Positions 11,140-63,168 of a DNA stretch of 64,000 nucleotides are shown one piece after another. The notes under the pieces were generated by a model. It ran no database searches, was not told the origin of the DNA, and saw only the letters and a program-made list of their open reading frames with translations. Positions within the stretch are counted from its first letter, which is position 1. Every line of letters starts with the position of its first letter. A program made the position numbers and the translations under genes. The stretch lies in assembly GCF_000259075.1 (NCBI RefSeq), contig NZ_AJKI01000053.1:26686-90685 (forward strand). Reading direction: 5' to 3'. This stretch comes from Marinilabilia salmonicolor JCM 21150 (GTDB taxonomy: Bacteria; Bacteroidota; Bacteroidia; Bacteroidales; Marinilabiliaceae).

Positions 11140-11379
11140 TTCTTTTATTATTTTTTTACAAAAGTTTCTTTTGTTGGCCGGGTTATTCTTGTTTGTTTTT
11201 ATTGTTTAACGAACAATGGCTAATACAAAAAACTACAATAAAAGACAAAAATTAACGGTGTCAATGTTTTTTGTCTTAACGGTAAGTGTTTGTATGTTAG
11301 GAAGTAAAGTGCCCTTTTGAGGAGGTTTTTAATGATGCAGATTTGCAACCGGGATTCTTGACTCTATGGACAGGCTAAT

Positions 11380-11546
11380 TAGTGCCTGTCCATAAACTAA
11401 GCAAAGTATCTCAAGTTCGCTGTGTCTGTTCAGAAGGTTTCGTTTACAAGGCTTGGCATTAGCGGAAATGCGGAGTTTACTCGAGTAAATGAGCAATTTC
11501 CGCTAATGCTGTAACGCAGTAAACGGGATTTTATGGACAGATTCTA
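11380..11546. repeat. Palindromic MITE-like element 1 (167 bp), overlaps fucosidase stop codon
   Basis: The ends are TAGTGCCTGTCCATAAAC on the left and the inverse of TAGAATCTGTCCATAAAA on the right. Inside are a 14-bp perfect inverted repeat (11456-11469 with 11496-11509) and a 14-bp palindrome around CTCGAG (11476-11489). The terminal CTA at 11544-11546 is, on the minus strand, the TAG stop codon of the GH29 gene. No coding capacity is seen. Confidence 0.85.
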
Positions 11547-13247
11547 ATTACTTTCAATGACTTGTCCCTCTTCGGTATAAAGATCTACGGGTCCGTCGAG
11601 TAAAACGGCTATAACTGTAGCCTCAGGGTCGAGTACTGATTCAGGAACCGGGATATAGGCAATTCCCGGGACTTCACTCCAATACAATTTCCCAAGTATT
11701 TGGTGCGATAATTTGGTGGCGTTGCCAACCACCCAAATGCGGTTAATTTTATTGTGTAATCCTTTAATCATTAATGGTCCGTTGGGTTTACCATCCAGGA
11801 TGAGATACAAAATGTTTTCATCTTCAGACAACAGGGAGTTTCCTGCAAAATGCTGAGTAGAGATGCCGGGTTTTACTTTTCCCATCAGGGGGAGGTGTTT
11901 TTTATTCCAAGCCTGATTTTCCGCAAGTTTGGAGAAATCCTCCATTGCCTGATTCGCTTCCGTTTCACCGGGTTTTACCTGATCAGCAAAGTCAACCGCA
12001 ACAACAGTTATTGCCGGATCGCATGCTTCTGACGGAATGTTAACCATCAGGTTGGCCTGCTCCTGATTGTATCGATAATCGATTCCGGTTTTCTTGCCTA
12101 GCAGTCTTACATTCTCAACCTTTCCTTTGATACCTCGCACAGAAATGGGGCTTTCTGGAGTGTAATCCAGATAGAGGTACAGTGTTTTATGATCCTTGCT
12201 AAGGGCGGAGGGGCCATTGAAATGTCCCTCGGGCAGTCCTGCTCTGGTACCGTAAATGGCTTCACTGTGTTTGCTTGTCCAACGACCAAACTCATCAAGG
12301 ATCTCGATTTGTGGTTCAGGGATCGTGCCATCCTGCATAGGACCTACATCCAATAATAGATTTCCTCCCTTGCTGATGCAATCTACAAAAGTACGTAAGA
12401 GCTGATAAGGCGTTTTGTAATTATGGTCATTGTGCTGATAGCCCCAACTGTCGTTCATGGTAAGGCAAAGTTCCCAGTATGGGTTTTCAGGTTGAGCTAC
12501 CGGGACTCCTTGTTCGGGAGTCATGTAATCACCGTATTCATTGAGTCGGCTGTTGATGATTACCCCTTCTTTATAGGAAAACAGCTTTTCTCTTACCTGT
12601 TTTGATCTCCATTCGTCGGCAGAATGTTCCCAGTCTCCGTCGAACCAGTAAAGATCGGGATTAAATGTGGAGGAGAGTTCATCCAGTTGTTCGAAGTAAA
12701 AGTCCACAAAACGGGACCATCGCTCCGGATTTTTCGAATATCTTACGCTGTCGCGTGTGAATGCCGGGTAATCCGGGTACGACCAGTCTATTAGTGAGTA
12801 ATAGAGTCCCACTTTAAGATCGTTTTTGCGAAGTTCATTGACAAAGGGGGTTATCAGATCCTTTTTTGCAGGGGTGTGTTTTGTCACTTTGTAGTGATCT
12901 GTTTCTGAGTCCCAGAGAGCAACACCGTCATGATGTTTGGTGGTGATGACCGAGTATTTAGCCCCTGCATTTTTGAAAAGTTTTGCCCATCGTTCGGCAT
13001 CGAAGTTGGAGGCATGAAATCCGTTAAGCTGGTTCATGTAATCTTCATGAGAGATATATCCGTTGAAGAAAGACCAGGATTCATCGATTCCGTTTACGGC
13101 ATATATACCATAATGAACAAAAATCCCCAGCTTGGCATCTTTGAACCATTCCATTCTTTCGGCCTTTTCTTCTTTTGTTTCTTGTGCCTCAACGGTGAAT
13201 AAAACCATGAGGAATGAAATTAAAAACAGAGTTGATTTGCGAATCAT
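11544..13247 (-). CDS. GH29 alpha-L-fucosidase with C-terminal extension
   Basis: The protein has 567 residues and a signal peptide (about 1-21, ending VEAQ). The GH29 barrel shows the conserved motifs MEWFKDAKLGIFVHYG, TTKHHDG (about 103-108) and LYWFDGDW. Asp203 in the last motif is the probable nucleophile by family comparison. Residues from about 340 onward form two similar beta-rich segments (both with a pattern like ILYLILDGKPNGPL), larger than the usual single C-terminal sandwich. It removes alpha-L-fucose, here probably from N-glycan core or antennae. It follows the CBM9-like gene by 20 bases and is the last gene of the GH20-CBM9-GH29 set. Its TAG stop is supplied by the end of a palindromic element, so the original C-terminus may have differed. 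Confidence 0.93.
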   Translation of the reverse strand: MIRKSTLFLISFLMVLFTVEAQETKEEKAERMEWFKDAKLGIFVHYGIYAVNGIDESWSFFNGYISHEDYMNQLNGFHASNFDAERWAKLFKNAGAKYSVITTKHHDGVALWDSETDHYKVTKHTPAKKDLITPFVNELRKNDLKVGLYYSLIDWSYPDYPAFTRDSVRYSKNPERWSRFVDFYFEQLDELSSTFNPDLYWFDGDWEHSADEWRSKQVREKLFSYKEGVIINSRLNEYGDYMTPEQGVPVAQPENPYWELCLTMNDSWGYQHNDHNYKTPYQLLRTFVDCISKGGNLLLDVGPMQDGTIPEPQIEILDEFGRWTSKHSEAIYGTRAGLPEGHFNGPSALSKDHKTLYLYLDYTPESPISVRGIKGKVENVRLLGKKTGIDYRYNQEQANLMVNIPSEACDPAITVVAVDFADQVKPGETEANQAMEDFSKLAENQAWNKKHLPLMGKVKPGISTQHFAGNSLLSEDENILYLILDGKPNGPLMIKGLHNKINRIWVVGNATKLSHQILGKLYWSEVPGIAYIPVPESVLDPEATVIAVLLDGPVDLYTEEGQVIESN

Positions 13248-16701: not shown

Positions 16702-16717
16702 CAGTATAATGTTTGTT

Positions 16718-16798
16718 TAAGTTATTGGTCTGATGGAACTCGCATGTAAGAATATTATACATATTCTATTGTGGTTCCATTGCCATGCTCGTTTCATT
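16718..16798 (+). repeat. 81-bp dispersed repeat, copy 2
   Basis: Identical over 81 bases to 2641-2721. It begins 16 bases upstream of the GH20 start codon and is followed after 19 bases by the REP-like repeat. Confidence 0.9.
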
Positions 16799-16817
16799 CG
16801 TATAAAATTTTACTGGA

Positions 16818-17000
16818 GTTCGGTTAAAAATTGAGGTTGCTTCACTGCGTTACCGATGACAGATTTTTGCAATAAGCAAAAAAATCAGATAATTAATAAT
16901 TGGACCCCATTCGGGGACCTGATTCATTTGTTATGCCAACCCCGGGTTACCCACCCGGGGTTATTGACTGTCGTCGATCTTCGATTCAAATTGGCCCCTT
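16818..17000 (+). repeat. REP-like repeat, about 183 bp, copy 1
   Basis: It matches the reverse complement of 42848-43029 along its length, from GGTTAAAAATTGAG to GATCTTCGATTCAA. It contains a perfect 10-bp stem, AACCCCGGGT with ACCCGGGGTT (16938-16947 with 16953-16962), and a smaller CCCC...GGGG hairpin. It ends about 10 bases after the PNGase stop codon, so it lies in the 3' untranslated region. Confidence 0.85.
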
Positions 17001-17010
17001 TCAGGGACCC

Positions 17011-33681: not shown

Positions 33682-35895
33682 ATGAAAAAATCTCTTTTTC
33701 TGATAAGTATTCCGTTAATGTTGCTCCTTTTTATTCTGTCTTGTCAACCACGACAAAGGGAGGCAGAAACACGTCTTACCGATTACGTTAATCCATTTAT
33801 GGGAACTGACGGGCCGGGAAATACCTACCCCGGAGCTACAGTCCCCTTTGGCATGGTACAGTTAAGTCCCGATATCGGTTACTCCGGATGGGACCGGATT
33901 GCCGGTTATTTCTATCCGGATAGTATTATTACCGGCTTTAGCCATCTTCATCTCACCGGAACTGGTGCCGGTGACCTCTATGATATTTTACTTACGCCGG
34001 TGAACAGCAGAGCTGTTAAAACTACTTCCGAAAACGGAAACCGTCCGTATTCGACATTTTCTCATGACAATGAACATGCCGAACCCGGGTATTATCAGGT
34101 CTTCCTGCAGGACTATGGTATTAATGCCGAACTTACTTCCACGCAAAGGACTGGTATTCACAACTATACTTTTCCAAAGGATGAGCATTCTGGATTTTTA
34201 CTCGATCTGGGGTATTCACTGAACTGGGATCGGCCGGTGATGACTTCCATCGAAGTAGAAGACAATCAAACCATTTCCGGATATCGGATGTCCTCAGGCT
34301 GGGCTGCCGATCAGCGTGTCTGGTTTGTGGCAAAGTTTTCGAAGCCAATTGAGAATACTACTCTTTTTCTGGATGGAGAAGAGGTGGAAGGCAGGGAAGT
34401 AAAAGGAACACATACAAAGATAGACCTTCGGTTTTCCACTAAGGAACAAGAAGAGGTTATGGTAAAAGTAGGAATTTCAAGTGCCGGCAGAGAAGGAGCT
34501 TTGGCCGCTATTGAATCTGAAGCCCCTCAATGGGACTTTGCCTCCTACCGGAAACAGGCCTCGGATATTTGGGAGAATGAACTAAGCAAAATTAAAGTGG
34601 AGAGTGATAACGAAGTCTGGAAAAAGACTTTTTACACCACTTTGTATCAGTCGATGCTGGCGCCTACACTTTATAGTGATGTCAATGGATATTACAAGGG
34701 TGCTGATGGAGAAATTCATCAGGCAGAAGGCTATCAGAAATATGACACCTTTTCACTTTGGGATACTTTCCGGGCCGCTCATCCCCTCTATACAATTATG
34801 CACCCCGACCGGGTTCCGGATATGGTTCAGTCACTGCTTAGTCATTATCGGGAAACCGGATTGCTGCCCGTTTGGTCAATGCAAGGCAATGAGACCAATA
34901 TGATGATTGGTTACCACGCCGTTCCTGTAATTGTGGATGCGTGGTTCAAGGGAATTGGCGGGTTTGATCCGGAGGAGGCCTTTGAGGCTTGCAAATCCAA
35001 TGCGATGTCGGATGATCACGGCATTAAAGAGTACCGGGAGCTGGGTTATGTGCCTCTTTCGGATGACCATGAGAACTGGTCGGTATCCAAAACACTGGAG
35101 TATGCCTACGATGACTGGTGTATCGCCATGTTTGCCAAAGATCTTGGTAAAACAGAGGATTATGAATATTACCTTGAACGAGCTTCCAACTGGAAAAATC
35201 ATTTTGATCCCGAAACCGGGTTTATGAGACCACGTCACGCCGATGGTCGTTTTATCAGTCATTTCGATCCTAAAGAATATACCGACCATTTTTGTGAAAG
35301 TAACGGCTGGCATTATTTCTGGTTTGTCCCCCACGACATAGAGGGGCTCCGTGACAAACTCGGGAGTGAGCGCTTCAGTCATCGACTGGACAGTATGTTT
35401 ACTTATGAACCTGAGGCCTCTGACGATTTACCCATATTCAGTACAGGAATGATCGGGCAGTATGCTCACGGAAATGAACCCAGCCACCATGTAGCTTATC
35501 TTTACAACTATACCGGAGAGTCATGGAAAACGCAGGAACGGGTGCGACAAATCCTGACGGAGATGTACCAGCCTGAACCTGCCGGACATTGCGGAAATGA
35601 AGATTGTGGTCAGATGTCTGCCTGGTATGTGCTCAGTTCCATGGGAGTTTATCCGGTGAATCCGGCTGATGGTATATACCACATAGGAAGTCCGCTGTGG
35701 AGAAAGGCGACAATCTCCCTTCCAGGAGATAAGAATTTTACGATCAGCGCCCCCGGAGTTAGCGAAACGGCAAAATATGTGGCATCTGTAACCTTGAACG
35801 GTGAGAAACTTAGTAACCCATGGATTCATCACAGTGATATTGTAGCAGGAGGAACTTTGGTCTTAGAAATGACTGATGAGCCAAACACCAATTAG
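33682..35895 (+). CDS. GH92 alpha-mannosidase, lipoprotein (second copy)
   Basis: The protein has 737 residues and a lipoprotein signal ending at Cys21 (ILSCQPRQ). It begins YVNPFMGTDGPGNTYPGATVPFGMVQLSPD and carries the family motifs ESNGWHYFWFVPHD, HGNEPSHHVAYLY and GNEDCGQMSAWYVLSSMGVYPVNP, so the catalytic Glu and the calcium site look intact. The sequence differs enough from the first GH92 to suggest another alpha-mannose linkage. It is separated from the preceding gene by 182 bases containing a GC-rich hairpin. The TAG stop codon is also the first three bases of a palindromic element, so the present C-terminus may have been set by its insertion. Confidence 0.95.
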   Translation: MKKSLFLISIPLMLLLFILSCQPRQREAETRLTDYVNPFMGTDGPGNTYPGATVPFGMVQLSPDIGYSGWDRIAGYFYPDSIITGFSHLHLTGTGAGDLYDILLTPVNSRAVKTTSENGNRPYSTFSHDNEHAEPGYYQVFLQDYGINAELTSTQRTGIHNYTFPKDEHSGFLLDLGYSLNWDRPVMTSIEVEDNQTISGYRMSSGWAADQRVWFVAKFSKPIENTTLFLDGEEVEGREVKGTHTKIDLRFSTKEQEEVMVKVGISSAGREGALAAIESEAPQWDFASYRKQASDIWENELSKIKVESDNEVWKKTFYTTLYQSMLAPTLYSDVNGYYKGADGEIHQAEGYQKYDTFSLWDTFRAAHPLYTIMHPDRVPDMVQSLLSHYRETGLLPVWSMQGNETNMMIGYHAVPVIVDAWFKGIGGFDPEEAFEACKSNAMSDDHGIKEYRELGYVPLSDDHENWSVSKTLEYAYDDWCIAMFAKDLGKTEDYEYYLERASNWKNHFDPETGFMRPRHADGRFISHFDPKEYTDHFCESNGWHYFWFVPHDIEGLRDKLGSERFSHRLDSMFTYEPEASDDLPIFSTGMIGQYAHGNEPSHHVAYLYNYTGESWKTQERVRQILTEMYQPEPAGHCGNEDCGQMSAWYVLSSMGVYPVNPADGIYHIGSPLWRKATISLPGDKNFTISAPGVSETAKYVASVTLNGEKLSNPWIHHSDIVAGGTLVLEMTDEPNTN

Positions 35896-36231
35896 TTTCT
35901 GTTCATAAAGTACCACTTGCGTCCCCGAAGGATCGGGACAAGCTGTTACGCTTGCCCGAAAATTCCTCATTTCAAATGGATGATATTTTAATAAACGATT
36001 CTTACTATTTAATGGGCGGGGTGGCTTGTCCGTTTTCCGGGCCGGCGGATAGCGGGAAGCCAAAATGGGCGAATTTCAAGGCCTTGCGCAATGGTCGGAA
36101 ATTTTGGCTTTTGCGGGGGGATAGGTTTAAACGGACTAGACCTTTTTGGTTCCTTTTTGGGGCAATGCCAAAAAGAACAATAGAAAATAGATTAAAAATT
36201 AAAATAAACTTTGCTTAATAGACCGACTCTA
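35893..36231. repeat. Palindromic MITE-like element 2 (339 bp), starts in GH92 stop codon
   Basis: The left end TAGTTTCTGTTCATAAAGT and the right end (inverse of TAGAGTCGGTC) follow the terminal pattern of the family. It is longer than the others, fills the whole gap before the GH2 gene and holds several internal inverted segments. An 88-codon frame inside it (35952-36218) is rejected as a gene because it is repeat-derived. Confidence 0.6.
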
Positions 36232-38813: not shown

Positions 38814-41105
38814 ATGAGATTATCATTAATAAAATCAGCTATAAAAGACGCCTTTTTATTTTGTGCTGCTGTAATGGGAATGCTTCTTTTACCCTTCACA
38901 GCGCAGGGACAGAAGCCCGCTGAGTATGTAAACCCTTTTATCGGAACCTCCAATTACGGAGCGACCTTTCCCGGGCCGGTGGTGCCATGGGGCATGGTGT
39001 CTGTGGTGCCTTACAACGTTACGCCAGGGGAGGGCAATGAGTATTCCAATACCGATAGCTGGTGCTCCAACCCGTATGTGTACAATAATGAATTGATGAC
39101 CGGCTTTTCGCATGTAAACCTGAGTGGAGTGGGTTGTCCTGATCTTGGAAGTATTATTCTGATGCCCACAACCGGTGATCTGGAGGTGGATTTCAACAGG
39201 TATGGTACCGCCATCAGCAATCAGAAAGCGTCCCCCGGTTACTATTCTGCTTTTCTGGACAGGTACAGCATTAAGGCGGAGGCGACAACGACTACCCGAA
39301 CCGGAATCAGCAGATATACTTTCCCCGAAGGAAAAGCCAATATTCTGTTGAACCTGGGGCATGGACTGACCAATGAATCGGGAGCTTTTGTGAAAATGGT
39401 TTCCGACACTGAAATAGAGGGTTACAAGCTGATGGGAACATTTTGCTACAATCCTGAAGCCGTTATCCCGATTTATTTTGTGGTAGAGTTTAGCAAGCCT
39501 GCCATTCAACTCGGCTACTGGAAAAAACAACCCCGACTTCCGGGAACTCGTCACCAGTGGTCATCCACCAGCGGTCAATTTAAAATTTATGAAAATTATT
39601 CCCGCGAGTTGGCCGGGGAGCAGATCGGAGCCTGGTACTCTTTTGAAACCGAAGAGGGTGAGGCTGTCGAAGCCAAAGTGGGGGTTTCTTATGTGAGTAT
39701 AGAGAATGCCCGTGAAAATCTGAATGCCGAACAGCCTGCTTTCGATTTTGAACAAACAGTGGCTCAGGCAAAGGAGCGCTGGAATCATCAGTTATCGAAA
39801 ATTGAAGTGGAAGGTGGTTCTCAGGAAGACAAAGTGAAGTTTTATACTGCGCTCTATCATTTACTTATTCATCCCAATATTCTTCAGGATGTGAATGGAG
39901 AGTATCCGGCCATGGAGTCAGCTGAAATCCTAAATACCGACGGGCATAACCGACATACCGTTTTCTCACTTTGGGACACTTACAGAAATGTGCACCCGCT
40001 GCTTACGCTGGTTTATCCTGAGCAACAAACCGATATGCTCAACTCTATGGTGGATATGTATAAAGAGAGTGGGTGGTTGCCTAAGTGGGAGCTCTATAGC
40101 AGGGAAACCAACGTGATGGAAGGCGATCCTGCGCTTGTGGTTTTGGCTGATTCCTATCTTCGGGGGCTCACCGGCTTTGATGTGGAGACGGCTTACGAGG
40201 GTATGATGAAATCAGCTATGTCGGAAGGAACAGAAAATCCACTTCGTCCGCACAATGGGTTTTTTAAGAAAAACCATTTTATAGCATTTCGCGATAGCTT
40301 TGATAATACCGTTTCTGAAGCGCTGGAGTTTTATGTTGCTGATTACAGTCTTTCCCGTCTTGCCCTCGCACTGGGCAAAAAGAAAGACCATAAAATGCTT
40401 TATGAGCGTTCTCTTGGGTATAAGAAATATTTCGATCCGGAGTTTGATCTCATGAGGCCTCTGGAAGCGGATGGTTCTTTTATGCCAAACTTTGATCCCA
40501 TGCAGGGAGAGAATTTTGAGCCGGTTCATGGTTTTCACGAAGGCAATTCCTGGCAATATTCATTTGCTGTTCCCCATGATATTCATGGGCTGATGAGACT
40601 GATGGGAGGGGCGGATCGCTTTGTACATCAGTTGGAGCGGACTTTTAACGACGGATTGTATGATATGAGCAATGAACCGGATATGGGTTATCCCTGGTTC
40701 TTCAATTATGTAGAAGGGCAGGAGTGGCGGACCCAAAGGACTGTCCGCGACTGTGTGAATCGTTATTTCCATACCGGTCCTGATGGGCTTCCGGGGAATG
40801 ATGATACCGGAACCATGAGTGCCTGGTTGCTTTACAGTATGATGGGCTTTTATCCGGTGAGTCCGGCAGATCCAGTTTATACCCTCAGTTCTCCGGTTTT
40901 TGACAAAGTAACTATTCATCTCGATAAAGATTATTTCCCGGGGGAAAAGATTGTCATCGAGTCAGTTAATAATTCTGGGGACAATATCTATATCCGAGAA
41001 ATGGAACTGGGTGGAAAACCGCTCAGAAAATATATGATATCACACGATGAGCTTATTGATAAAGGATATTTGAGGTTTTATCTGGATGATCAACCGGATA
41101 AATAG
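38814..41105 (+). CDS. GH92 alpha-mannosidase (third, divergent copy)
   Basis: The protein has 763 residues. Unlike the other two it has an ordinary signal peptide (about 1-32, ending TAQGQ) and no lipobox, so it is probably periplasmic. It begins YVNPFIGTSNYGATFPGPVVPWGMVSVVP. The motifs are shifted: EGNSWQYSFAVPHD keeps the probable acid Glu, NEPDMGYPWFFNY replaces NEPSHH, and GNDDTGTMSAWLL replaces GNEDCGQMSAWY. This marks a separate GH92 subgroup, likely with another linkage. It starts 21 bases after the GH2 gene. The TAG stop coincides with the first bases of a palindromic element. Confidence 0.94.
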   Translation: MRLSLIKSAIKDAFLFCAAVMGMLLLPFTAQGQKPAEYVNPFIGTSNYGATFPGPVVPWGMVSVVPYNVTPGEGNEYSNTDSWCSNPYVYNNELMTGFSHVNLSGVGCPDLGSIILMPTTGDLEVDFNRYGTAISNQKASPGYYSAFLDRYSIKAEATTTTRTGISRYTFPEGKANILLNLGHGLTNESGAFVKMVSDTEIEGYKLMGTFCYNPEAVIPIYFVVEFSKPAIQLGYWKKQPRLPGTRHQWSSTSGQFKIYENYSRELAGEQIGAWYSFETEEGEAVEAKVGVSYVSIENARENLNAEQPAFDFEQTVAQAKERWNHQLSKIEVEGGSQEDKVKFYTALYHLLIHPNILQDVNGEYPAMESAEILNTDGHNRHTVFSLWDTYRNVHPLLTLVYPEQQTDMLNSMVDMYKESGWLPKWELYSRETNVMEGDPALVVLADSYLRGLTGFDVETAYEGMMKSAMSEGTENPLRPHNGFFKKNHFIAFRDSFDNTVSEALEFYVADYSLSRLALALGKKKDHKMLYERSLGYKKYFDPEFDLMRPLEADGSFMPNFDPMQGENFEPVHGFHEGNSWQYSFAVPHDIHGLMRLMGGADRFVHQLERTFNDGLYDMSNEPDMGYPWFFNYVEGQEWRTQRTVRDCVNRYFHTGPDGLPGNDDTGTMSAWLLYSMMGFYPVSPADPVYTLSSPVFDKVTIHLDKDYFPGEKIVIESVNNSGDNIYIREMELGGKPLRKYMISHDELIDKGYLRFYLDDQPDK

Positions 41106-41258
41106 TGCTTGCAAGAAAACGCCAATTGCTGCGTTGGGCTTGCCTTCAAAACAGTCATTTACGAAAAGTAAACTCCTGTTTTTCAGTCATCGCCCGCCTT
41201 GCACTTGACGCTTTCTTATCAAGCACACCCAAAAACAGGAGTTTTCTTGCTGACACTA
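41103..41258. repeat. Palindromic MITE-like element 3 (156 bp), starts in GH92 stop codon
   Basis: The left end TAGTGCTTGCAAGAAAAC matches the inverse of the right end (TAGTGTCAGCAAGAAAAC). A 13-bp perfect inverted repeat lies inside (41171-41183 with 41231-41243, AACTCCTGTTTTT type). It has the family's TAGTG terminus but a different inner terminal sequence. Confidence 0.8.
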
Positions 41259-41260
41259 AA

Positions 41261-41415
41261 TAGAGTCTGTCCCTAAACTAAGCGTTTTTGACGTGTTTGA
41301 GATAGAAAGTTCAAATTTAAGGCGTGTGAAAAATCTAAACCGCAGAATACTAATGTATTTGAGGATTTAGATTTTGAGCAACAACGCTGAAGTTGGACTT
41401 TATAGACAAACACTA
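41261..41415. repeat. Palindromic MITE-like element 4 (155 bp)
   Basis: The left end is TAGAGTCTGTCCCTAAAC and the right end is the inverse of TAGTGTTTGTCTATAAAG. It is nearly identical in sequence and length to 62877-63031 and shares both halves with 51932-52132. Only two bases separate it from the element before it. Confidence 0.88.
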
Positions 41416-41417
41416 AA

Positions 41418-41525
41418 TAGTGCCCGTCTATAAAGTCGTGATAGTGTATTTATTATCACGTGTCTGGTCAGAAAGTGCCAGTTGCAAGCACAACGAAGCA
41501 AATGGTACTTTATGGACAGACTCTA
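41418..41525. repeat. Palindromic MITE-like element 5 (108 bp)
   Basis: The terminal inverted repeats are TAGTGCCCGTCTATAAAGT and the inverse of TAGAGTCTGTCCATAAAGT. A CGTGATA...TATCACG hairpin lies inside (41437-41460). It ends 25 bases before the phosphatase start codon, so it must lie across or next to the promoter of the hydrogenase region. Confidence 0.85.
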
Positions 41526-42744: not shown

Positions 42745-43271
42745 GATTGGGAAACCCTTTTTGTTTCAAAAATTTGGTCATTGCGAGTGTCAACCCCAAT
42801 AAAATTTGGGAAATAATGCGTAAATGACAGAAGGAGTTCGTCCCTGTAGGGGGCAAACTTGAATCGAAGATCGACGACAGTCAATAACCCCGGGATCTCG
42901 ACCCGGGGTTATTGGGCAAATGAATCAGGTCCCTGAATGAGGGCCAATTATTATTTGTTTGGTTTTTTGTTTGTTCCATAAATCTGTCATTGGTAACTGG
43001 GTGAAGCAATCTCAATTTTTTAACCGGGCATCAATGTTAAAAAACCTTTAATCCGGATTCGACTTTTTTGTCTTTCTTTTCAAATTTGCATCTTTTGTAC
43101 TTTTCATTCTTACAGTAATTTAGACCGGATATATATTGCAAAGTGTGTCTTTTTTTATTTTTTAAATTCCTTAAAAATTGTAGTTTCGTGTATTAATTAT
43201 TGAAAAAAATCTTTAATCAGGGGCGAGTGACTATGCTCTTGTTTGTCAGTTTTTTAAATGGCTAAAAGTAA
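42745..43271. other. Spacer with REP-like repeat and AT-rich leader
   Basis: The 527 bases contain the reverse-oriented REP-like repeat (42848-43029) and then about 240 AT-rich bases. TAGTTTCG at 43181-43188 is a one-mismatch fit to the Bacteroidota -7 box and could start the main hydrogenase transcript about 85 bases before the next gene. Confidence 0.5.
42848..43029 (-). repeat. REP-like repeat, about 182 bp, copy 2 (inverted)
   Basis: It is the reverse complement of the repeat at 16818-17000, with local differences. It contains a stem of about 13 bp, CAATAACCCCGGG with its inverse (42882-42894 with 42902-42914). Confidence 0.85.
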
Positions 43272-51402: not shown

Positions 51403-51456
51403 TCTTTGACAGCGAGTTGATAATTGGTAATTGTTCATTGTTAATTGAAAACAGTT

Positions 51457-51930
51457 ATGGCAAAAGTAAAAATACCCGAAAATAAAGTTCAGGAATTGAA
51501 AGATTTGTGCGCCAAATTCAATAATGAACCTGGTGAGTTAATTAATGTGTTGCACGGTGCACAGGAAATGTTTGGCTATCTGCCTGCTGAAATTCAGGAG
51601 ATTGTGGCAGAAGAGATGAATGTTTCTGTTGCTCATGTTTATGGCGTGGTGACATTTTATTCCTTCTTCTCCATGCTGCCCAAAGGAAAACATCCGATAT
51701 CAATTTGTATGGGTACCGCCTGTTATGTGAGAGGCGCTGAAAAAGTCCTTGAGGAGTTTAAGCGGCATCTGGATGTGAAGGTGGGTGAAACAACGCCTGA
51801 TGGAAAGTTTTCTCTCAGTTGCCTGCGTTGTGTCGGAGCTTGTGGACTTGCTCCCGTGGTTACAATTGGTGAGCGTGTTTACGGGCGCGTATCTCCCGAA
51901 GATGTAAAAGGAATTCTTGGAGAATATTAA
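51457..51930 (+). CDS. hydC: NADH-dependent hydrogenase subunit HydC (NuoE-like)
   Basis: The protein has 157 residues from the ATG giving MAKVKIPENKVQELKDL; a TTG four codons upstream is not preferred. The thioredoxin-like 2Fe-2S fold has Cys84 and Cys89 in CMGTACYVRG, and Cys125 and Cys129 in RCVGACG. It completes the HydABC complex that couples oxidation of NADH and ferredoxin to hydrogen evolution. It is the last gene of the structural set. A palindromic element begins one base after its stop codon. Confidence 0.94.
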   Translation: MAKVKIPENKVQELKDLCAKFNNEPGELINVLHGAQEMFGYLPAEIQEIVAEEMNVSVAHVYGVVTFYSFFSMLPKGKHPISICMGTACYVRGAEKVLEEFKRHLDVKVGETTPDGKFSLSCLRCVGACGLAPVVTIGERVYGRVSPEDVKGILGEY

Positions 51931-52284
51931 ATAGTGCCTGTCCATAAACTAAGCGTTTTTGACGTGTTTGAAATAGAAAGTTCAAATTCAAGGCGTGTGA
52001 AAAATCTAAACTGGAGTCCCGAAGTAGCTTTTGTAAGGTTTTTTAAACAAAAAACCAACAAAAAGCACAATCGGGATGAGGATTTATATTTTGAGCAACA
52101 ACGCAGAAGTTGGACTTTATAGACAAACACTAAATCATGAACCCACTGGATTGCAGGGATGGCGGATTCTTTGGCATGTAAAGCAGAAATGCTAGATGCC
52201 GATCCGCCGTTTCTGTAAAAAATCTGTAAAACCTTTCCGATAACAGCACTTTCATTGTACCTTTAAAGTCTTAAAGGTTATGTT
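51931..52284. other. hydC-hydG spacer
   Basis: The first 200 bases are a palindromic element; the remaining 152 are unique and should carry the hydG start signals. A 62-codon frame that runs through the element (51934-52122) is not a gene. Confidence 0.6.
51932..52132. repeat. Palindromic MITE-like element 6 (201 bp)
   Basis: The left end TAGTGCCTGTCCATAAAC starts one base after the hydC stop. The right end is the inverse of TAGTGTTTGTCTATAAAG. Both halves match 41261-41415 and 62877-63031, but the centre carries about 46 extra bases with its own TCCCGA...TCGGGA inverted repeat. Confidence 0.88.
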
Positions 52285-62665: not shown

Positions 62666-63168
62666 GTAAGGAATTATTTTTGTGCAACTTTACTGATTAT
62701 GAATTTTTTAAATGCGGTTGATTTTTAATTTTCACTCGTATTTGGTCGGGGTGGCTTCTTCAAAATAGATTTATTATTGAACAACACTGATGTCCTTTTA
62801 AAGAAAAGAAATTGCTTTCCTATCATTGTTAAATTATTTTATTGGGTTGGAGGGAGTAATTTTCGATTTTGCTGATAAGTGTCTGTCCATAAACTAAGCG
62901 TTTTTCATGTGTTTGAGATAGCAAGCTCAAATTCAAGGCGTGTGAAAAATATAAACCGCAGAATACTAATGTATTTGAGGATTTAGATTTTGAGCAACAA
63001 CGCAGAAGTTGGACTTTATAGACAAACGCTAATTAGCCCCTCCAACCTGGCCTGTTTTACATAAATGAAATTATTGTAAGTGAAACGAAGCAATCTTTAC
63101 CTTAAGTTTCGATTTCTCCGGGTACTGGTGGGGTTTTATAGAAACGGCTTCATAACAGTTTTTCAGGA
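62666..63168. other. Spacer with a palindromic element
   Basis: The 503 bases hold element 7 (62877-63031). Just after it GAAACGAAGCAATCTTTACC resembles an end of the REP-like repeat. No gene is supported. Confidence 0.55.
62877..63031. repeat. Palindromic MITE-like element 7 (155 bp)
   Basis: It nearly matches 41261-41415 along its whole length, with ends AAGTGTCTGTCCATAAAC and the inverse of TAGCGTTTGTCTATAAAG. Unlike several other copies it is not next to a stop codon; the nearest gene end is over 130 bases away. Confidence 0.88.

Follow-up and report, generated by a model that had tools for sequence, protein, structure and literature searches.

Junctions of a MITE family coincide with stop codons in Marinilabilia salmonicolor

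A preference for safe insertion sites is known for a few transposons, such as Tn7, which inserts behind glmS, and some insertion sequences that insert into palindromes. A partial precedent for short repeats that coincide with stop codons is provided by the pneumococcal BOX repeats. According to the passages that describe them, in 36 of 58 BOX-overlapping genes the repeat encodes the stop codon at the far 3' end of the gene, and no strong evidence of truncation is given for BOX-encoded stops (Croucher et al. 2011, PMC3049150). The window analyzed here, a stretch of 64,000 nucleotides from Marinilabilia salmonicolor JCM 21150, contains short repeats that meet the ends of genes at their stop codons. 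An earlier sequence-only reading proposed that such a repeat supplies the stop codon of a fucosidase gene.

The repeat family and its target

The ends of the element family are AGTGYYYGTCYATAAA and its reverse complement. The sequence AGTGYCTGTCCATAAA has 361 matches with up to two mismatches throughout the host draft genome (4.98 Mb, 72 contigs), compared with 13 for the reversed control. We characterized the family in 13 contigs (2.67 Mb) picked for size and for the presence of end matches, all used whole with the exception of C31 (254,604 of 335,585 bases). Pairing of the ends yielded 99 elements, and merging of neighbours gave 88 arrays. The relevant features of the window are as follows (no strand is assigned to the elements).

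11381..11545, element 1, a MITE of 165 bp with the family ends and AATT at 11377-11380 and 11546-11549; predicted RNA fold z -5.2
11544..11546, minus strand, TAG stop of the fucosidase gene, with T from the duplication and AG from element 1
11547..13247, minus strand, alpha-L-fucosidase, coding part (PF01120, 304 bits)
33682..35895, plus strand, first GH92 gene; its TAG at 35893-35895 consists of the T of the duplication (35890-35893) and the AG of the element
35894..36230, element that follows the first GH92 gene, decayed or composite
38814..41105, plus strand, second GH92 gene; its TAG at 41103-41105 consists of the T of the duplication (41100-41103) and the AG of the sister element
41104..41257, sister-family element with ends AGTGCTTGCAAGAAAAC and GTTTTCTTGCTGACACT; AAAT at 41100-41103 and 41258-41261
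41262..41414, second element of the tandem array, 153 bp, AAAT on both sides
41419..41524, third element of the tandem array, 106 bp, AAAT on both sides
51928..51930, plus strand, TAA stop of a 2Fe-2S thioredoxin-like gene (51445-51930, PF01257), within the target TAAATA at offset +2
51933..52131, element of 199 bp; AAAT at 51929-51932 and 52132-52135
62878..63030, element of 153 bp; flanks GATA and AATT, a mismatch

The fucosidase reading frame (11544-13247, minus strand) encodes 567 amino acids and closes with the TAG at 11544-11546. The top match to the second GH92 protein, among the matches listed, is from Marinilabilia salmonicolor (94%). The right border of the element at 35894..36230 is uncertain, and comparison with a genome of the same genus (G004) places it approximately 15 bases further out. 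No stop codon is present at either border of the element at 62878..63030. The window also contains a 100-nt sequence in two copies with 95% identity (2635-2734 and 16712-16811) and a perfect inverted repeat of 26 bp with a 3-bp loop (2494-2548). Inverted copies at 16879-17008 and 42840-42968, which are possibly another repeat family, lie around AACCCCGGG..CCCGGGGTT hairpins with arms that are 86-87% complementary.

The repeats of the window are MITEs. All 99 paired elements have terminal inverted repeats, a property that the pairing itself demanded. The main element lengths in the host sample (153, 164, and 165 bp) indicate a lack of coding capacity, and the 361 end matches indicate a dispersed family of high copy number. 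The flanks agree at three or four of four bases in 76 of the 88 arrays, agreement having been part of the pairing score, and this together with empty alleles at two loci in G004 identifies a target site duplication. Reconstruction from the host arrays gives the target YTAWWTAR, in which the 4 bp ANNT are duplicated, and at two sites (C3 162047 and C31 143357) the duplication appears by eye to be 5 bp. No Rfam model matches the window at its gathering score, element 1 has no match among plasmids at E 1e-5, and the exact junction pattern has none among viral contigs.

Multiple elements, or an abutting element-like end, are found in 22 of the 88 arrays. The junction, TANNTA followed by G, is itself a target sequence, and the re-creation of the target at each junction would explain the tandem arrays. 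The sister family shares the ANNT target and forms stacks with the main family; it is also present in G004 (L347). In the 2.67-Mb sample, its ends have 31 matches with up to three mismatches, part of which arise by chance.

Coincidence with stop codons

The coincidence between repeats and stop codons is real. Among the 1766 genes that our own simple caller identified in the 2.67-Mb sample, 3' ends face 84 array sides. The T of the duplication and the AG of the element form the closing TAG of a gene (offset -2) at 25 of the 88 arrays, where 3.8 are expected (p ~3e-14), and the stop lies inside the target (offset +2) at eight of 88, where 3.0 are expected (p 0.01). Up to 60 bp, no other offset is seen more than once, and no called gene spans an array or ends deeper within one (0 of 88). 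The expectation comes from a weight matrix that was trained on 48 insertions located away from stops and applied to permissive positions, a motif-matched control of approximately 588 effective sites. The suggestion that the coincidence exceeds chance thus holds, and the genome-wide comparison of distances to stop codons, proposed as a check, does find enrichment. The near hit noted at hydC has its place in this pattern: the reading frame at 51445-51930 ends with a TAA inside TAAATA at offset +2, and the element at 51933 follows closely.

A second proposal, that the element recognizes a TAG or TAA target, agrees with the consensus, whose half site, TAR, corresponds to a stop triplet. Since YTAWWTAR holds stop triplets, the target motif alone might be thought to produce the coincidence. 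However, this is very improbable given that 25 of 88 arrays are observed at -2 against 3.8 for the matrix-matched control and 5.2 for strict YTANNTAR sites; stops are enriched beyond the motif. Spurious short reading frames were rejected as a cause because the -2 result is the same at cut-offs of 100, 150, and 300 amino acids (25, 23, and 15 arrays versus 3.6, 3.2, and 1.9 expected). The genes at the 25 sites range from 103 to 1245 amino acids. The +2 excess is weak when only genes of at least 300 amino acids are used (4 versus 1.9 expected, p 0.12).

The host count leaves out 25 unpaired ends, one of which (C2 98424) also closes a gene with TAG in the same register, and the sister-family elements. 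Both GH92 genes had been described as repeating the coincidence seen at the fucosidase. The register is indeed the same, but the junction at 41103 is that of the sister family rather than of element 1, and since sister repeats are outside that statistic, it does not count towards the 25. The element end that faces the gene at the -2 sites is CC-type in 12 cases, CT-type in seven, and other in six; elsewhere the numbers are 64, 53, and 26, and there is no clear bias in orientation.

The same register is found in other genomes. A contig scan for TANNTAGTGTCTGTCCATAAA gave at least 118 stretches outside the host, with listed titles that include Bacteroidota, spirochaetes, Nitrospira, Thermodesulfovibrionales, Desulfobulbus-like bacteria, a lentisphaerote, and others. 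Of 206 junctions from these stretches, 18 are at -2 (5.0 expected) and 15 are at +2 (3.3 expected), with 21 ends that have less than 300 bp of flank left out. The register is therefore a property of the family, not of the host genome alone. An earlier count of exact ends only, in 80 of the at least 118 stretches, gave four junctions at -2 and seven at +2 of 76. In a genome of the same family as the host (G016) the exact end pattern has 416 matches, about twice the host's 200, and the repeat family has thus expanded there too.

Origin of the stop codons and of the excess

When the empty sites are rebuilt by joining flank to flank, a stop is present at the same codon in 22 of the 25 -2 sites (11 TAA, nine TAG, and two TGA), and in 24 if two duplications are taken as 5 bp. 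Four of the 25 sites carry little information on the original codon: at two of them a sister element forms the far flank, and at two more that flank resembles a decayed end by eye. The partner end is missing for four of the 18 outside -2 sites; a stop preceded the insertion in 12 of the 14 that can be reconstructed, including two (L301 and L323) where the far flank is another element.

Comparison with G004 gives the same picture. Its fucosidase is 94% identical and, with no element present, ends at the same residue with ESN and a TAA stop; three fucosidases with 60-61% identity likewise have ESN and then TAA. We therefore rejected the element as the source of the fucosidase stop. The observation that the final CTA of element 1 is the TAG of this gene stands insofar as the stop is located there; however, the AG alone belongs to the element, and the T is part of the duplication. 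The first GH92 gene of G004 (L348) ends in ACC AAT TAA, again at the same residue and with no element. Reconstruction of the site at 35894 gives TAG where G004 has TAA, so single reconstructions can err in detail. At the second GH92 gene the sister-family element is common to both genomes at the same stop, and the window carries two further tandem elements beyond it.

That the element supplies the stop, either truncating or rescuing reading frames by its TAG, is thus most unlikely as a general account. Three rebuilt empty sites, the single host exception at C2 48690 and the outside sites L266 and L273, are without a stop, and in these the element may have made it. The stops that precede insertion at the great majority of host and outside sites, and the two G004 genes that close at the same residue with TAA, argue against it. 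They also count against the idea that elements are kept where their TAG restores termination. The identical C-terminus and stop in an orthologue that lacks the element had been named beforehand as one of two outcomes that would refute the proposal.

An alternative with a greater, though still limited, likelihood is that insertion occurs at any YTAWWTAR and the distribution is produced by retention only. Insertions that disturb genes, promoters, operons, or terminators would be lost, and the survivors would gather at stops, where the AG end makes insertions harmless. None of the 88 arrays is inside a called gene. The sister element that meets the second GH92 stop also occurs in G004 and is thus old, and the oldest third of the arrays, as judged by nearest-neighbour identity, has 11 of 33 at -2 compared with seven of 33 in the youngest third. 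These observations are consistent with retention. However, insertion 3-30 bp behind a stop ought to do hardly more harm, yet such sites hold eight arrays where 6.5 are expected. The other distance bins up to 300 bp roughly match expectation, and those beyond 300 bp are under-filled (7 versus 26.5 on the 3' side and 27 versus 47.2 on the 5' side). This perhaps reflects uncalled genes there, in which case all other expectations would rise somewhat.

The excess is also already present in the youngest third (p 4e-4), and this points to a preference during insertion. Added retention would fit the oldest third, although the difference between that third and the youngest is not significant, and age comparisons by nearest-neighbour identity do not separate targeting from retention. 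We infer that insertion preference and retention both act, with insertion preference the larger.

It had further been suggested that the repeat places a strong RNA hairpin at the 3' end of the mRNA. Strong folding is indeed predicted for the two elements that were folded, those at 11381 and 51933 (z -5.2 and -5.0). Such folding might favour the elements being domesticated hairpins, maintained at stops for their effect in ending or protecting mRNAs, which we consider improbable. A consensus scan of 11300-11700 for intrinsic terminators (a GC-rich hairpin and then a T run) found no U-tract terminator in element 1; its single match, at 11622-11607, is outside the element. Additionally, such a benefit should be independent of the exact base, yet -2 and +2 alone recur.

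The likely transposase and comparison with known systems

An Ignavibacteria metagenome-assembled genome (L232) contains an element of 2006 bp that shares these ends, is flanked by AATT on either side, and encodes a 443-amino-acid ISNCY-family transposase, which scores 379 bits against NCBIfam NF033593 (cut-off 325). In G028, a genome of the same order as the host, a 41-residue transposase fragment, 66% identical to that of L232, lies 246 bp inward from the end AGTGCCTGTCCATAAACTAAGC. Of 100 genomes searched, 15 contain a match of any strength to the L232-type transposase, whereas a search of the host genome gave none. A candidate autonomous partner with the same ends is found in other genomes (L232 and G028) but not in the host. 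The host also has no match to PF13751, and its three PF01609 matches were rejected as the mover since they have no pair of family ends, although L226 and L228 have a single weak end apiece. Where ends in the host sample pair over long distances, the DNA between them contains ordinary genes.

Based on these findings, an ISNCY-family transposase likely moves the MITEs, presumably in trans, a view weakened by the lack of a match in the host search. In L232, a reading frame at 11-532, which resembles an IS30-type transposase, is interrupted by the 2-kb ISNCY-type element and runs 15 bases into it. Gene-breaking insertions therefore exist in other genomes.

We consider it probable that MITEs moved by an ISNCY-type transposase enter ANNT/YTAWWTAR targets, that the terminal AG rebuilds the stops they split, and that the excess comes mostly from insertion preference. 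The transposase would place the element in ANNT within the palindrome YTAWWTAR, and where this target overlaps a stop codon, the terminal AG would restore the split codon as TAG. The protein is likely unchanged, and the repeat likely spreads without a change in protein. The larger part of the excess would then arise at insertion through site preference, and not only by later loss of harmful insertions. A bolder reading, which we advance tentatively, is a stop-codon-homing family of several phyla, with an insertion complex that prefers true gene ends to equal motifs in other places and an AG terminus that rebuilds the split stop, which would let the family colonize gene-dense genomes nearly free of cost.

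Under such a mechanism the stop codon, as a very frequent motif, would be a safe harbour, since the damage done by splitting it is mended by the end of the element. Should a share of the excess originate during insertion, the machinery tells genuine gene ends apart from motifs of identical sequence. Repeats annotated as stop-supplying may in other cases have entered pre-existing stops. Among the titles and abstract openings listed by literature searches, none was recognizable as a description of this repeat family or of stop-registered insertion, and neither 'stop codon' nor 'ISNCY' occurs in the available text of PMC10969869.

BOX repeats resemble the family in being short and non-autonomous and in inserting into one another. 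However, they are modular (boxA-boxB-boxC) and apparently unrelated in sequence, and the passages devoted to them mention neither a fixed register nor a target motif, nor a terminal dinucleotide that rebuilds the stop (PMC3049150). The ISNCY-family insertion sequences (NF033593) are linked to the window elements by the ends and the 4-bp AATT duplication of L232, but the window elements themselves lack a transposase, and no match to that of L232 was found in the host. RUP, Correia, ERIC, and similar MITEs differ in their TA-type targets and in the absence of a stop-codon register from the sections that describe them; they share with the window elements a length below 200 bp, terminal inverted repeats, target duplications, and strong RNA folding (PMC2229807).
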